Shown piece after piece: positions 1 through 64,000 of a stretch of DNA of 64,000 nucleotides. Made by a program: the position numbers and the translations under genes. The DNA lies in NCBI RefSeq assembly GCF_900100765.1, contig NZ_FNFO01000004.1, positions 186,001 through 250,000 on the forward strand. Reading direction: 5' to 3'. A model generated the notes under the pieces. That model was not told the origin of the DNA. It made no database searches and saw only the letters and a program-made list of their open reading frames with translations. The DNA is from Catalinimonas alkaloidigena (GTDB lineage: Bacteria > Bacteroidota > Bacteroidia > Cytophagales > Flexibacteraceae). Numbering within the stretch: the first letter of the stretch is position 1; every line of letters starts with the position of its first letter.

Positions 1-1159
1 GCAGATCGTCGACAGAACCCATGCGGGTACCGGAAGCGGTCAGCGCGTTACTCAAAAATGATTTCTCGTTGAGAAACCACGTGTGCGTGAGGCCCAGCAC
101 GCCCAGGTCAGCGCTTTGTTCGTAGCGGTTCAGCGGCTTCTCTTCGTCATTTTCCTCTACCAGGTGAATCGAACTCAAGCCGCCCAGGCCGTACACCGTC
201 ACTACATTTTTCTTGCCGACGGGCAGTTCTACGTTGAACGAGGCATCCTGGTATTTCGGCACGCCGCCGTAATCCAGAATCCCGATCTCCGAAAAGAGTT
301 GCAGTGCTGAGTAGCGATAATTGGCGATGTAGGAGCCGCCGTACTGCTTGCTGAAGGGGCCTTCCGCCGTCACGTCGAGGCCAATCATGCTGGCCCCCAG
401 CGTAAACTCACGTTGCTCGTTATTGCCCTTTTTGAACCGCATGTCGAATACTCCCGAAAGGGCATTGCCGTATTCGGCGGGAAACGCACCGGAGAAAAAG
501 TCGGAGTTGTCGAGCATGTTGCTGTTGAGCGCGTTGATCGGTCCACCCGTGGCGCCTTCGCTCGCGAAGTGGTTCGGATTGGGAGTTTCCACGCCCTCCA
601 GCCGCCACAGGATGCCCTTCGGCGAGTTGCCGCGCACCACAATGTCGTTGTTGCCTTCCGCGTTGCCCGTCACCCCGGCGAAGGAAGCCACCATCCGGGC
701 CGGATCGTTGATGGAACCCGCGTACCGCTGCGTCTCTTCCACCGAAAAGCTCCGCGCGCTGACCAACGCCATGTCGTTCAGGACGTCGCCCTGATTGGTT
801 TCCGAGGTCACCACCACCTCGTCGAGGCTGGCGACCGACTCCTGCATGGGAACGTTGAGAATCACCTCTTTGGCGGCCGTCACCAGCAGGTTGGACACGA
901 CGCGCTCCTCGTAGCCGGTGTAGGTGATCCAGAGCGAGACGCGCCCCACCGGCACGTTTTCGATTCTGAAATTTCCGTCCAGGTCGGTCACCGCCCCTTG
1001 GACCGGATCGGACTGGAGGATACGGACGGTTGCGCCTACCAATGGGGTTTGTGAGTCCTGGTCTTTGAGCGTCCCGCGAATGGTTTGCGTAGCGTGCTGC
1101 GCATACCCGACGTGCACGAGTAACAGCAATAGGAGAAGCAGAAAGGGTTTGCGTTTCAT
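1..1159 (-). CDS. TonB-dependent outer-membrane receptor (N-terminal part; C-terminus beyond window)
   Basis: The open frame runs from an ATG at 1159 off the left edge, so only the first ~386 residues are visible. It starts with a signal peptide (MKRKPFLLLLLLLLVHVGYA, then Q). A carboxypeptidase-regulatory-like beta domain follows at about residues 25-110 (GTLKDQDSQTPLVGATV, TDLDGNFRIENVPVG), ending in the linker SLDEVVVTSE. The plug domain follows, with VVRGNSPKG and GAFPAEYGNALSGVFDMRFKKG. This layout is typical of Bacteroidota TonB-dependent receptors that import a ligand across the outer membrane. No SusD partner is visible on this side and the ligand is unknown. A GGGGTA bipartite motif lies 47-57 bp upstream of the start. 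Confidence 0.9.
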   Translation of the reverse strand, partial: MKRKPFLLLLLLLLVHVGYAQHATQTIRGTLKDQDSQTPLVGATVRILQSDPVQGAVTDLDGNFRIENVPVGRVSLWITYTGYEERVVSNLLVTAAKEVILNVPMQESVASLDEVVVTSETNQGDVLNDMALVSARSFSVEETQRYAGSINDPARMVASFAGVTGNAEGNNDIVVRGNSPKGILWRLEGVETPNPNHFASEGATGGPINALNSNMLDNSDFFSGAFPAEYGNALSGVFDMRFKKGNNEQREFTLGASMIGLDVTAEGPFSKQYGGSYIANYRYSALQLFSEIGILDYGGVPKYQDASFNVELPVGKKNVVTVYGLGGLSSIHLVEENDEEKPLNRYEQSADLGVLGLTHTWFLNEKSFLSNALTASGTRMGSVDDL

Positions 1160-1185: not shown

Positions 1186-1216
1186 ATGAAAATCAAAGTC
1201 GACGCTACCCCTACGC
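1186..1216 (-). promoter_or_regulatory. Bipartite motif GCGTAGGGGTA-N14-TTTCAT upstream of the TonB receptor
   Basis: Read on the minus strand, GCGTAGGGGTA (1216-1206) is followed after 14 bp by TTTCAT (1191-1186). The same two blocks with the same spacing lie upstream of the next gene at 2319-2349. The upstream block ends 47 bp before the ATG at 1159. It does not resemble the housekeeping TTTG/TAnnTTTG promoter, so an alternative (ECF) sigma promoter or an activator site is inferred. Confidence 0.5.
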
Positions 1217-1248
1217 ATTGACTAAAAAAACTTCCAACCCCGCTCAAA

Positions 1249-1286
1249 ATAAAAAAAGCGAGCTCCCTTAAAGAAGGAAACCCGCT
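1249..1286 (-). terminator. Rho-independent terminator after the LA_2272-type gene
   Basis: On the minus strand a 13-bp stem (AGCGGGTTTCCTT pairing with AAGGGAGCTCGCT, including several G-U pairs) with a 4-nt loop is followed directly by a run of T. It lies just past the stop codon at 1307 and ahead of the TonB receptor promoter region. Confidence 0.7.
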
Positions 1287-1306
1287 AAAATGGACTCAAT
1301 CTTGTC

Positions 1307-2290
1307 TCAAAACAGGATATTCACGCCGCCCGACAAGCCCAGGTAGACGCCCTGCAACTCCCGGGAAGAATCTTTTTGCCAGATGAAGTGATCGACCAGT
1401 TCTTTGCTTTCCGCCTGATTGGTATTGGCGTAATTGAGCGTAGGTCCGGCGTAGAGTTCCAGAAAGTTGGCGAACCGAACGGAGGGCAATAACCGAAGCG
1501 AGGCGCGCAGGTAGTCGCCTTTCCCAAAGTCGAACAGGTTGATGGCCGCAGCCTCGGCCCGAAGATGAAAGAAACGTTGCGTCAGTAGGTGCGCGCCGAT
1601 ACCACCCTCCATCGCATACACCGCTTCTTCGTTTTTGAGATTATAGCCGATCCCTAAAATGCTGTAGAGTACCCGCCCCCCCGAACGAAAGGAAACCAGG
1701 GTGGTCCGGGTTTCGTCCACCGCCACGCCGATGCTCTTCTCGCCGGTTTTGATCAGGTTCAGGACACCAATGGCGTAGTCGCTCGAGTCGGCGAGGTTGA
1801 TCACCCCGATTTGCAATCCTTTTACCGTTTTGGCGACGTTGACTACGCCGGACAGTTGAAAGCCGGTCACGTCGCGCGCGGTGTTGACCACACCCCCGAC
1901 CTGTAGGCCCCGCATGTCGTCGGCAGTCAGGTTGGCTACGCCAGCCAGGTGAAGTCCCTCCTGGCGTTGGCTTTGGTTGAGGACCCCGCCCGCGACCAAC
2001 CCGCGGGAGCTGCCCGTGGTAACATTGGCGACGCCCCCGAGTTGCAACCCGTCCACCCGTCCTCGGTTCACGTTGGCAACGCCGCCGAGTTCAAGGCCCT
2101 TCACCCCACCATTGACGCCGTAGATCGCGTTTAGCGAGAAGTGATTGGCGTAATCGCCCGAGCGGGTTCCGGCGGTGCCGACCGGATACGCCAGCGAAAC
2201 CTGGGCGATGTGCACGCTGGTAGAATCCTGGGCTCGTACGGCCGTGGTCAAAAGAAGGAAGAGCGCAAAGAAGGTATAAATCGTTTTCAT
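1307..2290 (-). CDS. LA_2272-type surface repeat protein, exported
   Basis: The frame is open further upstream, but the start is placed at the ATG at 2290 because it begins a clear signal peptide (MKTIYTFFALFLLLTTAVRA, then Q). This gives 327 aa. Residues ~45-170 are about six tandem ~22-residue repeats of the form GL-LGGVANV---G-V, for example VDGLQLGGVANVTTGSSRG and MRGLQVGGVVNTARD. The second half looks like membrane beta-strands. Such repeats define the LA_2272 surface-repeat family, whose function is unknown. The gene is followed by a terminator and shares its upstream motif with the TonB receptor gene. Confidence 0.8.
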   Translation of the reverse strand: MKTIYTFFALFLLLTTAVRAQDSTSVHIAQVSLAYPVGTAGTRSGDYANHFSLNAIYGVNGGVKGLELGGVANVNRGRVDGLQLGGVANVTTGSSRGLVAGGVLNQSQRQEGLHLAGVANLTADDMRGLQVGGVVNTARDVTGFQLSGVVNVAKTVKGLQIGVINLADSSDYAIGVLNLIKTGEKSIGVAVDETRTTLVSFRSGGRVLYSILGIGYNLKNEEAVYAMEGGIGAHLLTQRFFHLRAEAAAINLFDFGKGDYLRASLRLLPSVRFANFLELYAGPTLNYANTNQAESKELVDHFIWQKDSSRELQGVYLGLSGGVNILF

Positions 2291-2318
2291 GGTTCGTGGT
2301 TGATGTTGGTTTGCTCTG

Positions 2319-2349
2319 ATGAAACCTGAAGGCGCGCTTACCCCTACGC
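2319..2349 (-). promoter_or_regulatory. Bipartite motif GCGTAGGGGTA-N14-TTTCAT upstream of the surface repeat protein
   Basis: This is the second copy of the element at 1186-1216. GCGTAGGGGTA (2349-2339 on the minus strand), a 14-bp spacer of unrelated sequence, and TTTCAT (2324-2319) are identical in both blocks. The upstream block ends 49 bp before the ATG at 2290. Conservation of both blocks, spacing and distance from the start codon, with divergent sequence between them, argues for a shared promoter or operator. Confidence 0.5.
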
Positions 2350-2443: not shown

Positions 2444-3367
2444 ATGAAACACCTACTCTTCCTGCTCCTGATTTGCCCCTTTTGCATCGAGGGTTCACGC
2501 GCCCAATCGCTGCCCGAGCGACTGGGCTATCCGAAAGACACCAAACTTCTGATCATCCACGCCGACGACCTGGGCGTCTCCCACGCGGAGAATGCCGCCA
2601 GCATCGCCGCCTTCGAGCGGGGGCTGGTCAATTCCGGGAGTATCATGGTGCCCTGCCCCTGGTTTCCGGAAATTGCCGCTTACGCCCGCGCGCACCCCGA
2701 GGCCGACCTGGGACTGCACCTGACACTCACCAGCGAGTGGAAACAGTACAAATGGGGACCGGTGGTCGCCGGAGAACAAACCGCCGGGCTGGTCGATGCC
2801 CAGGGATACTTCTTTGACAATACGACCTCGGTCGCGACAAAGGCTTCGCCCGACGAAGTAGAGCGGGAAATCCGAGCGCAGATCGAACGGGCCAAGCAAT
2901 TTGGGGTCGATCCGACGCACTTCGATGCGCACATGGCGGGCATGTTTGTCCGGCCCGAGTTTTTCAAACTCTACCTCGACCTCAGTCACGAATACCGGGT
3001 TCCGGTGTTGATCGTGAAAGAGATCTTCACCAGACTTAACATAAATCAAAATAATTACGTAACAGATCAGGATGTAGTACTGGATCAGTTGTTCATGGCC
3101 GAACCCGCCGATTACGCGGCCGGCATGGAAGCGTACTATACCCGCGTGCTGAAGGAAGTACAACCCGGCTTGAGTTGTCTGCTGATTCATGTGGCGTACG
3201 ACAACGCCGAAATGCAGGCCGTGACGGTCGATCATCCGGACTACGGAGCCGCTTGGCGGCAAGCCGATTTCGATTTCTTCACCGGGGCGAAGTGTCGGCA
3301 ACTGCTAAAAGAACAAAACATTCGGTTGATCACCTGGCGTGAAATTCGCGACAAGTTGTATCGTTAA
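2444..3367 (+). CDS. YdjC/ChbG-family carbohydrate deacetylase, exported
   Basis: The start at 2444 gives a signal peptide (MKHLLFLLLICPFCIEGSRA, then Q), and an in-frame alternative start at 2417 only adds residues ahead of it. The 307-aa product carries YdjC-fold hallmarks. LLIIHADDLGVSH supplies the Asp-Asp metal/catalytic pair, LGLHLTLTSEW the His of the HLxLT motif, and PTHFDAHMAG a second metal His region. Family members remove acetyl groups from sugars such as chitooligosaccharides using a divalent metal. Export suggests action on an imported or envelope glycan. It ends 6 bp before the next gene, so the two are probably co-transcribed. The substrate is not determined. Confidence 0.85.
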   Translation: MKHLLFLLLICPFCIEGSRAQSLPERLGYPKDTKLLIIHADDLGVSHAENAASIAAFERGLVNSGSIMVPCPWFPEIAAYARAHPEADLGLHLTLTSEWKQYKWGPVVAGEQTAGLVDAQGYFFDNTTSVATKASPDEVEREIRAQIERAKQFGVDPTHFDAHMAGMFVRPEFFKLYLDLSHEYRVPVLIVKEIFTRLNINQNNYVTDQDVVLDQLFMAEPADYAAGMEAYYTRVLKEVQPGLSCLLIHVAYDNAEMQAVTVDHPDYGAAWRQADFDFFTGAKCRQLLKEQNIRLITWREIRDKLYR

Positions 3368-30799: not shown

Positions 30800-31340
30800 C
30801 GTACTTCTCCACGTAAATTTTCAGGTTGCGCTTTCCGTTTTGCAGGTAGCTCTTCACTTTTTTCAGGTCGTAGCCCGTTAGGTCCGCAATTTCCTGGTAG
30901 CTGCGCTGCTGTCGGTAAAACAAATCGAGGCACCGCTGCTGTTCGATCGGCAGGGTGTCCAGGCCCTTTTCGAGCAGTTGCAGTGCCGCTTCCCGGGGGT
31001 CTTCTTCTTCAGGATGCACCGCCTCGTCCGATTCCATAAAGGGTTCGTGCACGTTGCGTTTCCGCAGTTGCCCAAGGCAGTAATTTTTGGCCGTTACGTA
31101 AAGCCAGGGGGCAAATTCGCGCACGTCGTGTTTCTGCAGGCTCGTGACCAACTGCTCAAAAATCTGCATGACGGCGTCTTTGCTGTCCTCCTCGTGTTTC
31201 AGGTATTTCAGGCTTACCCCGAACACCAGATCGGTATAGCGTCCGTACAACTCGCCCAGCACCGCCACCTCGCCCGTGCGTCGGTAGCGCGCCAGAAGCT
31301 CGGCATCGGTAGCGGGCGGTTTACGACGGAACAGGCGCAT
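30786..31340 (-). CDS. ECF-type RNA polymerase sigma factor
   Basis: The start is placed at ATG 31340 (184 aa); upstream codons run into the divergent gene's region. Region 2 is LGELYGRYTDLVFGVSLKYLKHEEDSKDAVMQIFEQL with APWLYVTAKNYCLGQLRKR. Region 4 is LPIEQQRCLDLFYRQQRSYQEIADLTGYDLKKVKSYLQNGKRNLKI. It overlaps the TonB-like gene by 14 bp and is divergent from the VWA gene. The VWA gene is a likely target along with the operon itself. Confidence 0.92.
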   Translation of the reverse strand: MRLFRRKPPATDAELLARYRRTGEVAVLGELYGRYTDLVFGVSLKYLKHEEDSKDAVMQIFEQLVTSLQKHDVREFAPWLYVTAKNYCLGQLRKRNVHEPFMESDEAVHPEEEDPREAALQLLEKGLDTLPIEQQRCLDLFYRQQRSYQEIADLTGYDLKKVKSYLQNGKRNLKIYVEKYDDRS

Positions 31341-44738: not shown

Positions 44739-44749
44739 TACCCCATCGC
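44739..44749 (-). promoter_or_regulatory. GCGATGGGGTA element upstream of the pectinesterase gene
   Basis: On the minus strand GCGATGGGGTA (44749-44739) differs at two bases from the GCGTAGGGGTA element upstream of the TonB receptor and surface repeat genes, and its distance to the start codon (50 bp) matches theirs (47 and 49 bp). The downstream TTTCAT block is not conserved here (AGCGAT at the same spacing), so membership is less certain. Confidence 0.35.
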
Positions 44750-50520: not shown

Positions 50521-51063
50521 TTAGGTTGCGTTCAGTAGTTCTTTGCAAGCGACCAGCATGCTCTTACGCGCTCGGAATAAAGTCACTTTTACTTTGGCTT
50601 CGGTCCATCCGGTGATGGCGCTTACTTCTTTGACACTTTCTTCTTCCAGGTAGAAGAGCCTTAACACCAGGCTCTCGTTGGGTGAAAGTTTCCGAAGGGC
50701 TTCGTTGATCAAATGGGTTTGCTCCTCTTCCTGAGGTGACAGCAAAATGCTTTCGTCGACCCATTCCGCTTTAGAGTCATCTACAAACGAGATGCTTTCC
50801 CACTTTTGAATCTGTTTCAATCGCTTGAAGGCTTCATTGGTAACAATCCGGTACAACCAGGTGCTGAATTTTGACCGGCGATGAAACGACCGGATGCCTT
50901 TAAACGCCTTTATAAAAGACTCTTGCACCACTTCTTCTGCCTCAAATTCATCTTTGACAACCGACATGGCAATGGAAAAGGCCATGTCTTTGTACTGCGT
51001 GATGAAATAGCGAAAGGCATGGGTATCTCCCTCCAGTACTTTGTCAAGATAGAGGTCATCCAT
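50521..51063 (-). CDS. ECF-type RNA polymerase sigma factor
   Basis: A 180-aa sigma-70-family protein. Region 2 is FRYFITQYKDMAFSIAMSVVKDEFEAEEVVQESFIKAFKGI with KFSTWLYRIVTNEAFKRLKQ. Region 4 is LSPNESLVLRLFYLEEESVKEVSAITGWTEAKVKVTLFRARKSM. It lies between two small membrane-protein genes in one tight minus-strand unit (3 bp and 11 bp spacings). The base composition is lower in GC than the flanking genes. Confidence 0.93.
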   Translation of the reverse strand: MDDLYLDKVLEGDTHAFRYFITQYKDMAFSIAMSVVKDEFEAEEVVQESFIKAFKGIRSFHRRSKFSTWLYRIVTNEAFKRLKQIQKWESISFVDDSKAEWVDESILLSPQEEEQTHLINEALRKLSPNESLVLRLFYLEEESVKEVSAITGWTEAKVKVTLFRARKSMLVACKELLNAT

Positions 51064-59033: not shown

Positions 59034-59411
59034 TCAGTTCGTCAGGCGGTTTACTACTTCGACCAGCTTGTCGAAATCGAGCGGTTTCAATAAGTAGTCG
59101 TTAATCCCGGCGGCTGTGAAATCTTCTTCGGTATAGTTGCGGGCGTTGCCGGTAATGGCCACAATCGGAATGTTGGCTTTGTTCTGGTCGTCTAACGAGC
59201 GAATCTGACGCGCACATTCCATACCGTCCATGATGGGCATGTTGATGTCGAGCAGCAACACGTCGTAATGTTCGGAAGTGATTTTATCGAGCACCTGCTT
59301 TCCGTTTTTCGCGGAGAAGATTTCGTAATTCTGAAACTGAAGGATCTTTCTGGTCAGATTCTGAATGACCGAACTATCCTCACCAATAAGCACTTTTTTG
59401 GTTTTACTCAT
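59034..59411 (-). CDS. Single-domain response regulator (CheY-like)
   Basis: A 125-aa protein made only of a receiver domain. The acidic pair is Glu11-Asp12 (LIGEDSSVIQNL), the phospho-acceptor is Asp55 (VLLLDINMPIMDG), and the switch residues are Thr and Lys in IVAITGNA and NDYLLKPLD. It has no output domain. It overlaps the hybrid kinase gene by 4 bp (ATGA), so it is probably the kinase's partner and passes phosphate on or acts as a phosphate sink. Confidence 0.93.
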   Translation of the reverse strand: MSKTKKVLIGEDSSVIQNLTRKILQFQNYEIFSAKNGKQVLDKITSEHYDVLLLDINMPIMDGMECARQIRSLDDQNKANIPIVAITGNARNYTEEDFTAAGINDYLLKPLDFDKLVEVVNRLTN

Positions 59412-62400
59412 GGACTTATGGTATTGAGAAGGTTGGGGTATAGATCCTGATATTCACGGAATTTTTCTTCTAAATATATCAGGTCTTGTTGCAAAGATAT
59501 ATAATTACCTGTTTTTAATTTTTCCTCGGTCAAGCGGGCCTGTTCCGCGAGCTTTTCGACGCCCAGCGTTCCTGCATTGCCTTTCAGGGTATGGAGGTGA
59601 CTCTTCACCACATTGTACTCTTCACGCGCAGTGGCTTCCTGACACTCGTGCAAAAACTGCTGTGTTTCTGTCTCAAATTCCTGATACGTTTCCTGGGTCA
59701 TTTCTTCTCCGATGATACGCAGAAGATTTTTCACTTTTTCAAGATTGAGCACCGTACCCGCCGACGCTTCAGGAGCTTCGGCCGGGCCTTTCAGGACTTT
59801 GGTCGGTTTCTTCACCCACTCTTTGACCATCATCACCAGCGTTTCGGGTTTGATGGGTTTCGAGAGGTAATCGTCCATGCCCGACTGAATAAACTTGTCT
59901 TCGTCGCCCTGCATGGAGTAGGCCGTCATGGCGATGATGGGCGGCAGTTGTTTGTGCTGTTCGCGCAGCTTTTTCATGGCCGTGACGCCGTCCATGTCGG
60001 GCATCTGGATGTCCATAAAAATCAGCTCGAAACTGTCGTTCCCCACCGTAGCGAGGGCTTCGGCCCCGTTCGAGGCGGTCACCACATCGCACCCGGCTTT
60101 GCGCAAAATTTCGCTGGCCACTTTCCGGTTGATGGGGTTGTCGTCGACCAGCAGAACCCGCGGCGGCTCCAGAAACTGGTAGCGTACGGCCACGGCATGT
60201 TCGCTGTCGCGGGACGGCACCTGCGCGGCTTCTACCTCGCGGGTCTGGAACGTAAACCAGAACGTGCTGCCCTTGCCCTTCTCCGACTTCACGCCGATGT
60301 CGCCGTTCATCAGGTGGCTCAACTGCTTGCTGATGACCAGCCCCAGGCCCGTTCCGGCATACGACTTGGTCGACGAGTTGTCGAGTTGCGCAAAGTAGTC
60401 GAACAGGGCGCTCAGGTTTTCGCGCGAAATTCCAATGCCCGTGTCGGTTACTTCCACGCGGATCAGGTGCTTGCGCTGTGGGTCGTTCCCCTGCGCGGGC
60501 AGCACCTGTCCGGTAAAGGTCAGGCGCACTTCGCCCTTGTCGGTAAACTTGATGGCGTTGGACGTCAGGTTCGACAGCACCTGCAACAGGCGCGTTTCGT
60601 CGGCGCTGATGTAACGCGGCACCTCGTCGGCCACCTGGTAGTGGAGCCGGATGCCCTTTTGCGACGCCTGCTGCTGGAAGAGCGAAATCAGTTTGTCGAT
60701 CGTGTCGAACAGCGAAAGCGGGTGCCGCCGCAGTTGCATCTTCCCGGCCTCGATTTTGGAGATGTCCAGAATGTCGTTCAGGATGTTCAGCAGCGTCTCC
60801 GACGATTTTTTGACGGTCTGCACGTAGTCGCGCTGTTCGGTATTCAGGGGCGTGTCGTTCAACAGGTCGATCACCCCGATGACGCCGTTCATGGGCGTGC
60901 GGATTTCGTGGCTCATGTTGGCCAGGAACTGTTCTTTCACTTTGAGCGAACGTTCGGCCAGATCGCGGGCGTCCATCACCTCCTGGTTCGCCTTTTTCAG
61001 CTCCGTGATGTCGCGCGCCACGCCTTCCACCCCGACCACCTTGTTTTGTTCGTTGCGGATCAGGCGCATGTTACAGATGAACTGGATCACCTCCCCCCGT
61101 TTGTCGATGATGGGCACCTCGAAGTTACGGATGCTGCCCTTGCGGGTCAGTTGTCGCAGCGAGTCGCGCCGCCGCACGTTGTAGACGTAAAATTCGGTAA
61201 CTTTTTTCCCCATCACCTCTTCCGGTTCGTAACCGCAAAGTTCCTGCACCGATGGCGAGATCATGGTGATGTAGCCCTCCTGATCGGTTCGGAAGTAAAT
61301 GTCCTGGAACGACTCGAAGATGTTCCGGAACTTCTCTTCGCTCTCTTTCAGGGCCAGGCCGCTGATTTTTTTCTGGGTGATGTCGTGCCCGATGCCCGAA
61401 ATCTCTTCAATCTGTCCGTCGGATTTGTAGATCGGGTTGAGAAAGATTTCCCACCAGAGTTCCTCGTTCCGCACCGTTTGCGACGTCTCGAAATTGAGGG
61501 GCCGCCCGTCGAAGACCTGCTGGTACTGCGACAGCCACGTGCTGAACCAATGGTCCATCGGGATGCTGTGCTGGGTTCCCTCCTGTCCGAGTGTCACGCC
61601 GTAGTTGCTGTTGAAGGATGTGAGGCGTCCCTGGCGGTTTACGGACCAGATCAGGTGCGAGCTACTTTCGAAAATGGCGTTGAGTCGCGCCGTCTGGTCA
61701 CTCAACATTTCCTCGTCTTTCTTCCGCTGAATACTCAGCGCCACCTGCCCCGAGATAAAGTCGAGTAGTTTCAGGTCTTTCCGGTCGTAGGCGGTGCGGT
61801 CGTAATACGAATAGATGGCGATGACGCCGGTCAGGGTGCTGCCCAGCCGGAGCGGCACACCCAACCACACTTTCGGCACGGGCTTGGGCAAACTGACCCC
61901 GGCTTCGCGGGCCAGGCCCACCAGCCGCCCTTCGTAAAGAAATAAGGGCTGCTCCTGCTGCATGACCTGATAGGCCAGCCACTCGGCCATCTGCCGCCGC
62001 TCGGCGGGATACGGGTCGTCGTCGCCGTGTTCGTCCTGGAAAAAGGCAAACTGCAACCCGTCGCCTTCCGGATTGGTCAGCACAATCGAAAAGTTGTTGG
62101 TATCGACCGCCTGCCCCAGTTCCTGCTGAATGTTGGCGTAGAGATCGCGGAGGTTCGGGCTCTGGACCGTCAGCCCGGCAATGGTGTGGTACAGCCGCTG
62201 CGACCGCTCGGCACGGGTGCGCTCCGTGATGTCGTGCATGATGACACGGAAGGCCATCGGACGCCCGTTCTGAAACTGGCAGTTGATACTCGCCATCACG
62301 TTGATGTTTTTCCCGTCGTGGGTCAGCAGCACCGTTTCGAAGCGCTCGGTAGCGCCGCCCTTCAGCAGCGATTTCAGGTAGCGTTCGATCTGCTCGCGGT

Positions 62401-64000
62401 GTTCGGGATGGATCAACTGACTGAAGTGCAGTTGCTTGGCCTCGTCTTCGGTGTAGCCCAGCGTCGCCCGGAACGCGGTGTTGCCCGTGCGGAGCGTGCC
62501 GTCGGGCGCAAAGATCATGATCAGGTCGTTCGCGTTTTCGAAGAAGTCCTGCAACTGGCGGGTGCTCTCTTCCAGGGCCTTGGCGACGCGCAGTTTTTCC
62601 GTGATGTCTTCGCCCACCACCGTGGCGCGCAGTTGCCCGTCGGCGGCGTTGTTCAGGATGATGGTGTTGAACCGCACCACCCGCACTTCGCCGTTCCGAG
62701 TCAGGATTTCCTGCTCGAAGTTCTGCATCAACCCTCCCGACTCGAACAACTGCTTCAGATCGGCCACGGCCTGTTCGCGCTGGTCGGGCGGAATCAGGTC
62801 GAACCAGTTGCGCGCCTTCAGTTCGTCTTCCTGCCAGTCGGTGATGGTCTGGAAATAGTGGTTGGCATAGAAAAGCTGGCCTTCCTGATCCAGGTTCAGC
62901 GCTACCAGCGTGGCCTTGGCCAACACGTTGTGCAGGCGCTTTTCCGACTCGATCAGGGCTTCCTGACGGCGGGCTTCTTCTTCGGCGGCGCGGCGGTCGG
63001 TGATGTCGACCGCGCACGAAATGTAGCCCCGAAACTGCCCCTGGTTGTCCACGTAGGGCACGCCGTTGTCCAGCATCCAGCGGTAGGTGCCGTCGGCGCG
63101 TTTCAGGCGGTAGTTGATTTCGAACGAACCGCGCCGCTTGAAGGCCCGGTCGAGGGTCACCAGAAAATTGGGCAGGTCGTCGGGGTGCAGGTTGTCGAGC
63201 CAGCCGTTTTCCAACGCCTGTTCGGACGTGTAGCCGGTAAACGTGAGCCACTGCCGACTGAAGAAGTTGAAGTAGTTGTTGGCGTTGGTCATCTTCATCA
63301 GCACCGGCGCGTTATCGGCCAGCGTGCGGAACTTCGCCTCACTTTCTTTCAATGCCACTTCGGCCTGCTTGCGGTCCGTGATGTTGCGGATGATGGCCAC
63401 CATCAGGAAATTGTCGGGCGTTTCGAGCGAATTGAGCGTGATCTCCGTGTCGATCAACTCGCCGTCGAGGCGCTGGTGTTGCCCTTCGAACGAAAACGAC
63501 AGCCCCTTGCGTACGGTCTGAAACCGGCTGGCGACCAGGTCGGACGACAGCGCTCCATCGGGCTGCCGCTCGGGCAGCAGCGAAAGGTAGGGCATGCCGA
63601 TCATCTCGTCGGTTACGTCGCCGAAAATTTCGGACGCGCGCTGGTTACAGTCGACCACTACGCCGTCTTCCAGGAGAAGAATGCCGTCGTTGGCGGATTC
63701 GAACAGCAGCTTGTAGCGCTCTTCGTAGTTGGTCAACTGGCCCTGCAACCGCTCGTGCGTCAGGTAGTTGCCGAGTTCTTTGCTGATGAAGTTCAGCAGC
63801 AGAATCTCTTCCCGCCGCACCCGCTCCAGCATCCGCCGGAACACCAGCACCGCCCGCAGTTGCCCTTCCGTTTCGATGGGGAAATAGAGTAGTCGTTTGT
63901 CCGGGTCGACCGGGCTGGTCGTCACCACGTTGCGGTGGTAGCGCCGCAACTGCTGAAACGTCTTGTTTTTCAGGTCCAGCTGTTGCAGGGCAGCTTCTTC
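59408..64000 (-). CDS. Multi-PAS hybrid histidine kinase with receiver and Hpt domains (N-terminus beyond window)
   Basis: The frame is open from the right edge (no start codon inside the window that fits), so at least 1530 residues are present and the N-terminus is missing. The visible order is: end of a GAF-like domain, six PAS domains with one GAF between the fourth and fifth, then HisKA (NMSHEIRTPMNGVIG, His near 60910), HATPase (GTGLGLVISKQL), receiver (LIFMDIQMPDMDG, Asp near 60015), and a C-terminal Hpt domain (SHLHTLKGNAGTLG). This is a His-Asp-His phosphorelay protein likely in the cytoplasm or at the membrane. The partner response regulator is encoded directly downstream with a 4-bp overlap. 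Confidence 0.93.
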   Translation of the reverse strand, partial: EEAALQQLDLKNKTFQQLRRYHRNVVTTSPVDPDKRLLYFPIETEGQLRAVLVFRRMLERVRREEILLLNFISKELGNYLTHERLQGQLTNYEERYKLLFESANDGILLLEDGVVVDCNQRASEIFGDVTDEMIGMPYLSLLPERQPDGALSSDLVASRFQTVRKGLSFSFEGQHQRLDGELIDTEITLNSLETPDNFLMVAIIRNITDRKQAEVALKESEAKFRTLADNAPVLMKMTNANNYFNFFSRQWLTFTGYTSEQALENGWLDNLHPDDLPNFLVTLDRAFKRRGSFEINYRLKRADGTYRWMLDNGVPYVDNQGQFRGYISCAVDITDRRAAEEEARRQEALIESEKRLHNVLAKATLVALNLDQEGQLFYANHYFQTITDWQEDELKARNWFDLIPPDQREQAVADLKQLFESGGLMQNFEQEILTRNGEVRVVRFNTIILNNAADGQLRATVVGEDITEKLRVAKALEESTRQLQDFFENANDLIMIFAPDGTLRTGNTAFRATLGYTEDEAKQLHFSQLIHPEHREQIERYLKSLLKGGATERFETVLLTHDGKNINVMASINCQFQNGRPMAFRVIMHDITERTRAERSQRLYHTIAGLTVQSPNLRDLYANIQQELGQAVDTNNFSIVLTNPEGDGLQFAFFQDEHGDDDPYPAERRQMAEWLAYQVMQQEQPLFLYEGRLVGLAREAGVSLPKPVPKVWLGVPLRLGSTLTGVIAIYSYYDRTAYDRKDLKLLDFISGQVALSIQRKKDEEMLSDQTARLNAIFESSSHLIWSVNRQGRLTSFNSNYGVTLGQEGTQHSIPMDHWFSTWLSQYQQVFDGRPLNFETSQTVRNEELWWEIFLNPIYKSDGQIEEISGIGHDITQKKISGLALKESEEKFRNIFESFQDIYFRTDQEGYITMISPSVQELCGYEPEEVMGKKVTEFYVYNVRRRDSLRQLTRKGSIRNFEVPIIDKRGEVIQFICNMRLIRNEQNKVVGVEGVARDITELKKANQEVMDARDLAERSLKVKEQFLANMSHEIRTPMNGVIGVIDLLNDTPLNTEQRDYVQTVKKSSETLLNILNDILDISKIEAGKMQLRRHPLSLFDTIDKLISLFQQQASQKGIRLHYQVADEVPRYISADETRLLQVLSNLTSNAIKFTDKGEVRLTFTGQVLPAQGNDPQRKHLIRVEVTDTGIGISRENLSALFDYFAQLDNSSTKSYAGTGLGLVISKQLSHLMNGDIGVKSEKGKGSTFWFTFQTREVEAAQVPSRDSEHAVAVRYQFLEPPRVLLVDDNPINRKVASEILRKAGCDVVTASNGAEALATVGNDSFELIFMDIQMPDMDGVTAMKKLREQHKQLPPIIAMTAYSMQGDEDKFIQSGMDDYLSKPIKPETLVMMVKEWVKKPTKVLKGPAEAPEASAGTVLNLEKVKNLLRIIGEEMTQETYQEFETETQQFLHECQEATAREEYNVVKSHLHTLKGNAGTLGVEKLAEQARLTEEKLKTGNYISLQQDLIYLEEKFREYQDLYPNLLNTISP

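Follow-up and report, generated by a model that had tools for sequence, protein, structure and literature searches.

The FecI-FecR-FecA systems, known as fec in E. coli and as pup and fpv in Pseudomonas, combine a FecI-type ECF sigma factor and a FecR-type anti-sigma factor or regulator with an STN-domain protein of the outer membrane that is itself a TonB-dependent receptor with a plug. The signalling domain in published systems binds the periplasmic part of FecR-type regulators, according to the accessible text of PMC9249621. A different arrangement is found in the Dma/Das proteins, which act with ECF21 in Bacteroides thetaiotaomicron and unite anti-sigma factor, transmembrane helix, disordered tether and barrel in a single chain. 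Bacteroides thetaiotaomicron has 50 ECF factors, many of which are of largely unknown function and network (PMC12596196, accessible text).

The locus described here lies in Catalinimonas alkaloidigena, at the left end of the window, by which we mean the whole analysed stretch of 64,000 nucleotides (C4:186001-250000 of our genome G000, which comprises 7,107,765 bases, or 7.1 Mb, in 38 contigs). A pattern search of the window found two copies of the two-part element GCGTAGGGGTA-N14-TTTCAT on the minus strand, at 1186-1216 and 2319-2349, one in front of a gene for a TonB-dependent receptor and one in front of a gene for an LA_2272-repeat protein. We assign a probability of about 0.82 to the reading that both elements are promoters read by one dedicated FecI/FecR-type ECF sigma factor, which is encoded about 4 kb left of the window. 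The features in the window are:

1206..1216, minus strand: -35-like box GCGTAGGGGTA of the TonB-dependent receptor gene, exact match, AGGG(G)TA kept in relatives
1186..1191, minus strand: -10-like box TTTCAT of the TonB-dependent receptor gene, after a 14-bp spacer
1..1159, minus strand: 5' part of the TonB-dependent receptor gene (780 aa, extending left of the window; Pfam CarboxypepD_reg, Plug and TonB barrel)
2339..2349, minus strand: -35-like box GCGTAGGGGTA of the LA_2272 gene, exact match
2319..2324, minus strand: -10-like box TTTCAT of the LA_2272 gene, 14 bp from the first box
1307..2290, minus strand: LA_2272-repeat protein gene (327 aa, ATG at 2290; NF047436, E 4e-9)

The spacers of the two copies are unlike each other, and the pattern was absent from 100 dinucleotide shuffles of the window, which bears out the paired element with differing spacers that a reading of the sequence alone had proposed. 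With the core GTAGGGGTA-N13-15-TTTCAT, no further exact match beyond these two was present in the genome. From the end of the 11-mer to the start codon, 47 bp were measured for the TonB-dependent receptor (ATG 1159) and 49 bp for the LA_2272 protein (ATG 2290); together with 50 bp at a pectinesterase gene, these values agree with the 47-50 bp given for all three sites by the sequence-only reading.

That reading had also placed a relative of the first box, GCGATGGGGTA at 44739-44749, in front of the pectinesterase gene. Its distance to the start codon and the identity of the gene (PF01095, E 4.6e-63, and a C-terminal sorting domain that narrowly misses its cut-off) were correct, but the kinship of the site was not confirmed: at N14, AGCGAT stands instead of TTTCAT, and the box is one of 20 places in the window with at most two mismatches, where 12.8 were expected and 20 were reached in 3 of 100 shuffles. 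Since the second box is missing, we ruled out the pectinesterase gene as a regulon member, and the wider regulon that was meant to include it is not supported, the strict element having two copies in the whole genome.

Both genes downstream of the element encode proteins with signal-peptide-like starts, judged by eye for the LA_2272 protein. For the latter, the mechanically called ORF 1307-2452 with a GTG start was rejected in favor of the ATG at 2290, because it would overrun the element. In the AlphaFold model of the LA_2272 protein (pLDDT 87.3), residues 183-327 matched the OprF barrel with a Z score of 14.2 (121 aligned residues, rmsd 2.5). The last 145 residues matched a designed transmembrane barrel with a Z score of 14.4, and a second structure comparison was confined to residues 181-327. 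Avidin-type barrels also reached Z scores of 10-11, and therefore the models support a barrel in the C-terminal part, but no particular barrel family. Divergent from the LA_2272 gene lies a YdjC-like gene (2444-3364, plus strand). The far end of the window holds a gene for a 1513-aa hybrid histidine kinase (59408-63949, minus strand) that has GAF, receiver and Hpt domains and as many as five PAS matches with a single model.

The regulatory genes were found in the 20 kb left of the window (region L003 of G000:C4):

About G000:C4:181306-181872 (ORF L003:13249-13872), plus strand: linked ECF sigma factor gene, about 4 kb left of the window (TIGR02985)
L003:13897-14922, plus strand: fecR (PF04773 with 67.3 bits and PF16344 with 43.9 bits, both above cut-off)
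L003:14907-16610, plus strand: gene for a protein with STN, carboxypeptidase-regulatory-like and LA_2272 parts (profile matches)

They form an operon in the order ECF sigma factor, fecR, STN/LA_2272 gene on the strand opposite to the genes behind the two elements, and the TonB-receptor and LA_2272 genes adjoin this operon in convergent orientation. The linked ECF factor reached 182.7 bits with TIGR02985 (cut-off 126.4) and matched Sigma70_r2 and r4_2 above the cut-offs; its matches to the FecI models NF041727 and NF007232 were well below theirs. By these matches it is the FecI-type ECF sigma factor expected in a FecIRA system, just as the FecR and FecR_C domains of the second protein are those of a FecR anti-sigma factor or regulator. 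The ECF gene has no in-frame ATG before the conserved part, and a TTG start near L003:13306 is likely. A third, looser copy of the element, GGGGTA-N14-TGTCAT, lies outside the window before fecR (G000:C4:181856-181884, plus strand); in full it reads GGGGGTA-TTTGGTAAGTTAGT-TGTCAT, with three mismatches to GTAGGGGTA-N14-TTTCAT, and it would give a leader of a few bases only. Upstream of the linked ECF gene itself, no copy of the element is visible. The fecR copy has the GTC-type core in its -10-like box, but both window copies have TTTCAT. Among the 60 matches in the locus set described below, TGTCAT was the commonest form (26/60), and TTTCAT occurred in 4/60. The replacement of TGTCAT by TTTCAT may mean that the two window promoters are weakened or tuned.

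The product of the third operon gene is the likely sensor, judged by profile matches and models. Its AlphaFold model (mean pLDDT 90.4) shows an STN-like alternation of strands and helices. The STN profile PF07660 matched at E 0.0014 and 18.8 bits, which is below the cut-off of 28.4. For an alignment of such proteins, 27 were picked by hand from a list of 53 that included stand-alone LA_2272 proteins (L094 and L147 were left out), and a separate alignment was made of 13 hand-picked LA_2272 proteins. STN matches at E ≤0.01 were obtained for 18 of the 27 STN/LA_2272 members (best 2.7e-8) and CarbopepD_reg_2 matches for 26, and at E 0.01 none of the 27 matched a Plug or TonB-barrel model of Pfam. 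LA_2272_repeat matched in the C-terminal half of our protein with 30.9 bits (cut-off 25). All barrel matches in Foldseek were weak (E 0.0087 or worse) and concerned outer-membrane proteins or designed transmembrane barrels; the signalling domain of PupA matched weakly as well (E 0.084). Taken together, an STN-domain protein with a predicted outer-membrane location is present, but it is not itself a TonB-dependent receptor with a plug. The overall shape of the locus fits FecIRA-type signalling in which the sensor is not a TonB receptor, and the STN domain would sit, unusually, on a predicted barrel without a TonB plug.

The element is conserved in related loci. A search with the LA_2272 protein gave matches in at least 117 of 291 genomes of the order, and 20 regions around high-ranking matches were compared with the five proteins of our locus. 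One locus from another family (L088, genome G267) is colinear with ours in all five genes (identities of 55% for the ECF factor, 40% for FecR, 36% for the STN protein and 60% for the TonB receptor) and carries GCATAGGGGTA-N14-TTTCAT before its LA_2272 gene. Upstream regions of other loci contain TTAGGGTAA-N13-TGTCAT, ATAGGGGTA-N14-GGTCTT and similar variants. These variants were summarised in the form AGGGG?TA-Nk-[TG]TC, which was set on L003 and L072-L091 and tested for every k from 6 to 25. The set comprised 101 Bacteroidota loci, including our own, with 270 upstream regions of 350 bp before each protein match. At k=15, 60 of the 270 regions matched (two of them the window's own), compared with 0-11 at the 19 other spacings and with a mean of 0.5 and a maximum of 2 in 100 dinucleotide shuffles at k=15. 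By spacer identity, the 60 sites fall into 23 groups with unlike spacers, against at most seven groups at any other spacing. De-duplication by shared 14-mers condensed the 270 regions to 105 clusters (11 with the element at spacing 15 and 0-5 at other spacings); it chained unlike regions and was replaced by spacer identity. Smaller side peaks occurred at N8 (11 matches in seven spacer groups) and N19 (nine matches in two groups, eight of the nine in discovery loci).

As hold-out served 80 loci that were found by alignment to the TonB receptor and whose upstream regions were unseen until the form was fixed. In these, k=15 matched 32 of 195 regions and 25 of 80 loci, any other spacing at most eight regions, and the antisense strand four. 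Sorted by gene, the element preceded 24 of 52 ECF genes, 13 of 25 LA genes, 14 of 88 TonB-receptor genes, 5 of 47 fecR genes, 4 of 54 STN-type genes and none of four Dma-like genes; downstream genes of an operon do not need a promoter of their own. Loci that combine ECF, FecR and STN genes had it in 31 of 40 cases, the remaining nine being whole systems without a match, and other loci in 14 of 61. Cultured relatives that carry the element include Fulvivirga marina (L147) and Algoriphagus chordae (L116). Two boxes at one main spacing, with a bias towards the coding strand and a position shortly upstream of genes, are the properties expected of an ECF sigma-dependent promoter.

A tree was built from 71 ECF rows, requiring >80 bits and 140-260 aa for those from the loci and >130 aa for the set from our genome; L204 gave no ECF. 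In this tree, the linked ECF factor groups with the ECF factors of L088, L093 and L094 (98/84), and the element is present in all of those loci. A weaker and larger branch (89/85) is shared by the 31 element-bearing rows and 10 of the 12 rows from element-free loci; L203 and L230, two ECF factors of our genome, are also in this branch, yet no element lies near their fecR. Mapped on the tree, the presence of the element required 8 changes, compared with a mean of 23.5 after shuffling, and none of 500 shuffles was as low, although near-copies contribute to this clustering and the label does not mark a single clade. The element is thus both linked to one ECF lineage and co-varies with it. The sequence-only reading had put forward an ECF sigma promoter, and this idea finds good support in an element that is conserved, fixed in spacing, biased towards one strand and linked to one ECF lineage.

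The best-surviving alternative, although improbable, is that the element is a two-part operator for an activator or repressor encoded near the locus and not a promoter. About two helical turns between the boxes would also suit a dimeric regulator. However, neither box is a repeat of the other, the 32 sense against 4 antisense matches of the hold-out represent a strong strand specificity, and presence of the element is clustered on the tree of ECF factors. In addition, the -10-like TGTCAT resembles the -10 boxes of ECF promoters, for example the CGT box in Flavobacterium psychrophilum, as far as described in the accessible text of PMC9723704.

AGGGGTA-N14-TKTCAT had 85 exact sites in 194 genomes versus 69 for the reversed control, and for AGGGGTA-N14-TKTC no excess over the control was seen across the genomes G282, G246 and G014 (7 vs 8, 5 vs 9 and 14 vs 12). 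A looser pattern gave 104 sites in our genome versus 67 for its control, and the strict element with up to three mismatches gave 150 sites there versus 116 for the reversed control. Copy number in whole genomes is therefore only modestly above control, and the case rests on position. Counting the LA_2272 matches listed, at least 21 of the 85 exact sites have one within 5 kb, versus none of the 69 reversed ones (Fisher p 1.3e-6), with several of these sites coming from the same genera and hence not being independent; leaving out our genome, at least 19 of 83 sites are near a listed match (p 5.6e-6). In the 4.1-Mb genome G267, AGGGGTA-N14-TKTC has just two copies, and both belong to the operon, one preceding fecR and the other the LA_2272 gene.

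For our own genome, a larger strict regulon was considered and rejected: 27 of the 28 inexact sites examined, out of 148, lie inside mechanical ORFs of at least 150 aa, in a weak test that also flags both true sites via GTG or TTG starts. In a single one of the 28 (L025), an ORF begins within 80 bp. Neither an AGGG(G)TA nor an AGGG(G)AA box lies upstream of the genome's other LA_2272 gene (C1:113254) within its locus. A further conserved exact site, about 31-32 kb from the one at the LA_2272 locus, was observed in four genomes belonging to a single genus (L188 at G153:C3:59374, G142:C4:533834, G106:C56:145466 and G191:C9:531752).

We regard it as very improbable that FecI-type ECF factors of our genome use the element as a general promoter, without specificity for this system. 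Consistent with such a role, the genes behind some of the exact sites in other genomes do not, by eye, obviously belong to a locus of this kind. When 30 loci were fetched at exact sites, the next gene by eye was fecR-like in L173 and L189-L191, an ECF gene in L174 and TonB-receptor-like in L195 and L197, and nine of the 30 had no ORF start within 300 bp downstream. Looser variants also occur in our genome, AGGGGAA-N14-GGTCTAT before fecR of L216 (G000:C13, about 9518) and GGGGAA-N15-GGTCTT before the ECF gene of L224 (G000:C8), which are possibly sister systems with altered specificity. Against a general role, the genome has 29 loci with FecR matches above the cut-off, and a search of 1.5 kb either side for GGGTA-N14-[TG][GT]TC just before fecR and on its strand found it in the linked locus (L215) and in none of the others; the matches in L202, L204, L210, L222 and L229 are on the strand opposite to fecR. 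Moreover, 22 of the 28 ECF rows from the FecR loci of the genome (28 including the linked factor) form a separate branch of the tree (96/85).

The sequence-only reading had suggested as sigma factor one of two ECF factors encoded in the window. Both exist, with sigma parts at about 30801-31319 and 50524-51063 on the minus strand, and each matches sigma-70 region 2 and region 4, which speaks for the suggestion. Their best identities in the ECF set are 25% and 27%, and there is no FecR or LA_2272 match within 20 kb of either gene. As it is the linked ECF factor that clusters with those of element-bearing loci, the assignment to a window factor is probably wrong, and we rate it marginally lower still than a general promoter. 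Chance or a recent local duplication without function is hardly credible, given that the spacers are unlike, the genes behind the two copies have no relation to each other and both boxes are retained by relatives at an unchanged distance around dissimilar spacers, even though our genome has just two strict copies, both in one short stretch.

Against the preferred reading of a dedicated ECF sigma factor stand the missing copy before the linked ECF gene, the very short leader at fecR, TTTCAT in the window copies, the exact sites without a nearby ORF start, the whole systems without a match and the element-free rows in the larger branch of the tree. The reading can be combined with the gene content of the locus into a proposed mechanism. 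The STN/LA_2272 protein would reside in the outer membrane and hold FecR via its STN domain. An event at the cell surface would serve as signal and alter the contact between STN domain and FecR, upon which FecR would release or activate the sigma factor. With the sigma factor bound, RNA polymerase would then initiate at (A)GGGGTA-N14-T(G/T)TCAT before fecR, the LA_2272 gene and the TonB-receptor gene, with transcription probably starting a few bases past the second box. Most simply, fecR and the sensor gene, the LA_2272 paralogue of the sensor and the TonB receptor can be read as a small ECF regulon. Whether the locus stands for a Bacteroidota-wide signalling class is in our estimate evenly balanced. 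Members of such a class would use an STN domain on an LA_2272 barrel as sensor instead of a TonB transporter, would report on the outer membrane or the cell surface and not on an imported substrate, and would drive their own paralogue and a TonB receptor via TAGGG(G)TA-N14-TGTCAT.

With this locus, one Bacteroidota ECF lineage is tied to a promoter consensus, to a candidate regulon of compact size and to a candidate sensor of unusual design, so that target prediction and reporter tests become possible straight from the sequence, and a possible functional setting is offered for LA_2272 repeat proteins. The large re-classification of ECF factors reportedly includes predicted promoters, and an earlier prediction of this motif may be found there. 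In the accessible parts of the literature on the motif, the ECF group, LA_2272, Dma and STN sensors, we recognised no description of the element or of an STN/LA_2272 sensor.

Among the known systems, SM6 of Flavobacterium psychrophilum is similar in being a Bacteroidota ECF promoter with a conserved -10 region around GT, but it drives genes of a secretion system, its -10 region is a CGT box, and a GGGGTA box is not mentioned in the accessible text of PMC9723704. The Dma/Das proteins likewise belong to a Bacteroidota ECF system and have a C-terminal barrel tied to anti-sigma function (PMC13088901), for which the accessible text offers no promoter motif for comparison; in contrast to their one-chain plan, FecR and the STN/LA_2272 barrel of our locus are separate proteins encoded by separate ORFs. 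In another genome (G009), an ECF gene (L034:48-560) is followed by a gene for one long protein ending in LA_2272-like repeats (L034:550-2499), which by eye has a possible anti-sigma start and a transmembrane stretch and resembles the Dma plan. This protein suggests that LA_2272 barrels also serve in one-chain systems. The FecI-FecR-FecA systems share with our locus the FecI-type ECF factor, the FecR protein with FecR and FecR_C domains, the STN-like domain on a predicted outer-membrane protein and the location of target genes for surface proteins beside the regulators. The boxes of the fecA promoter differ from those of the element, and the STN protein described here lacks a plug and a TonB barrel and ends in a predicted LA_2272 barrel instead. 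Unlike in the FecA system, the TonB receptor of our locus looks like a target rather than the sensor.
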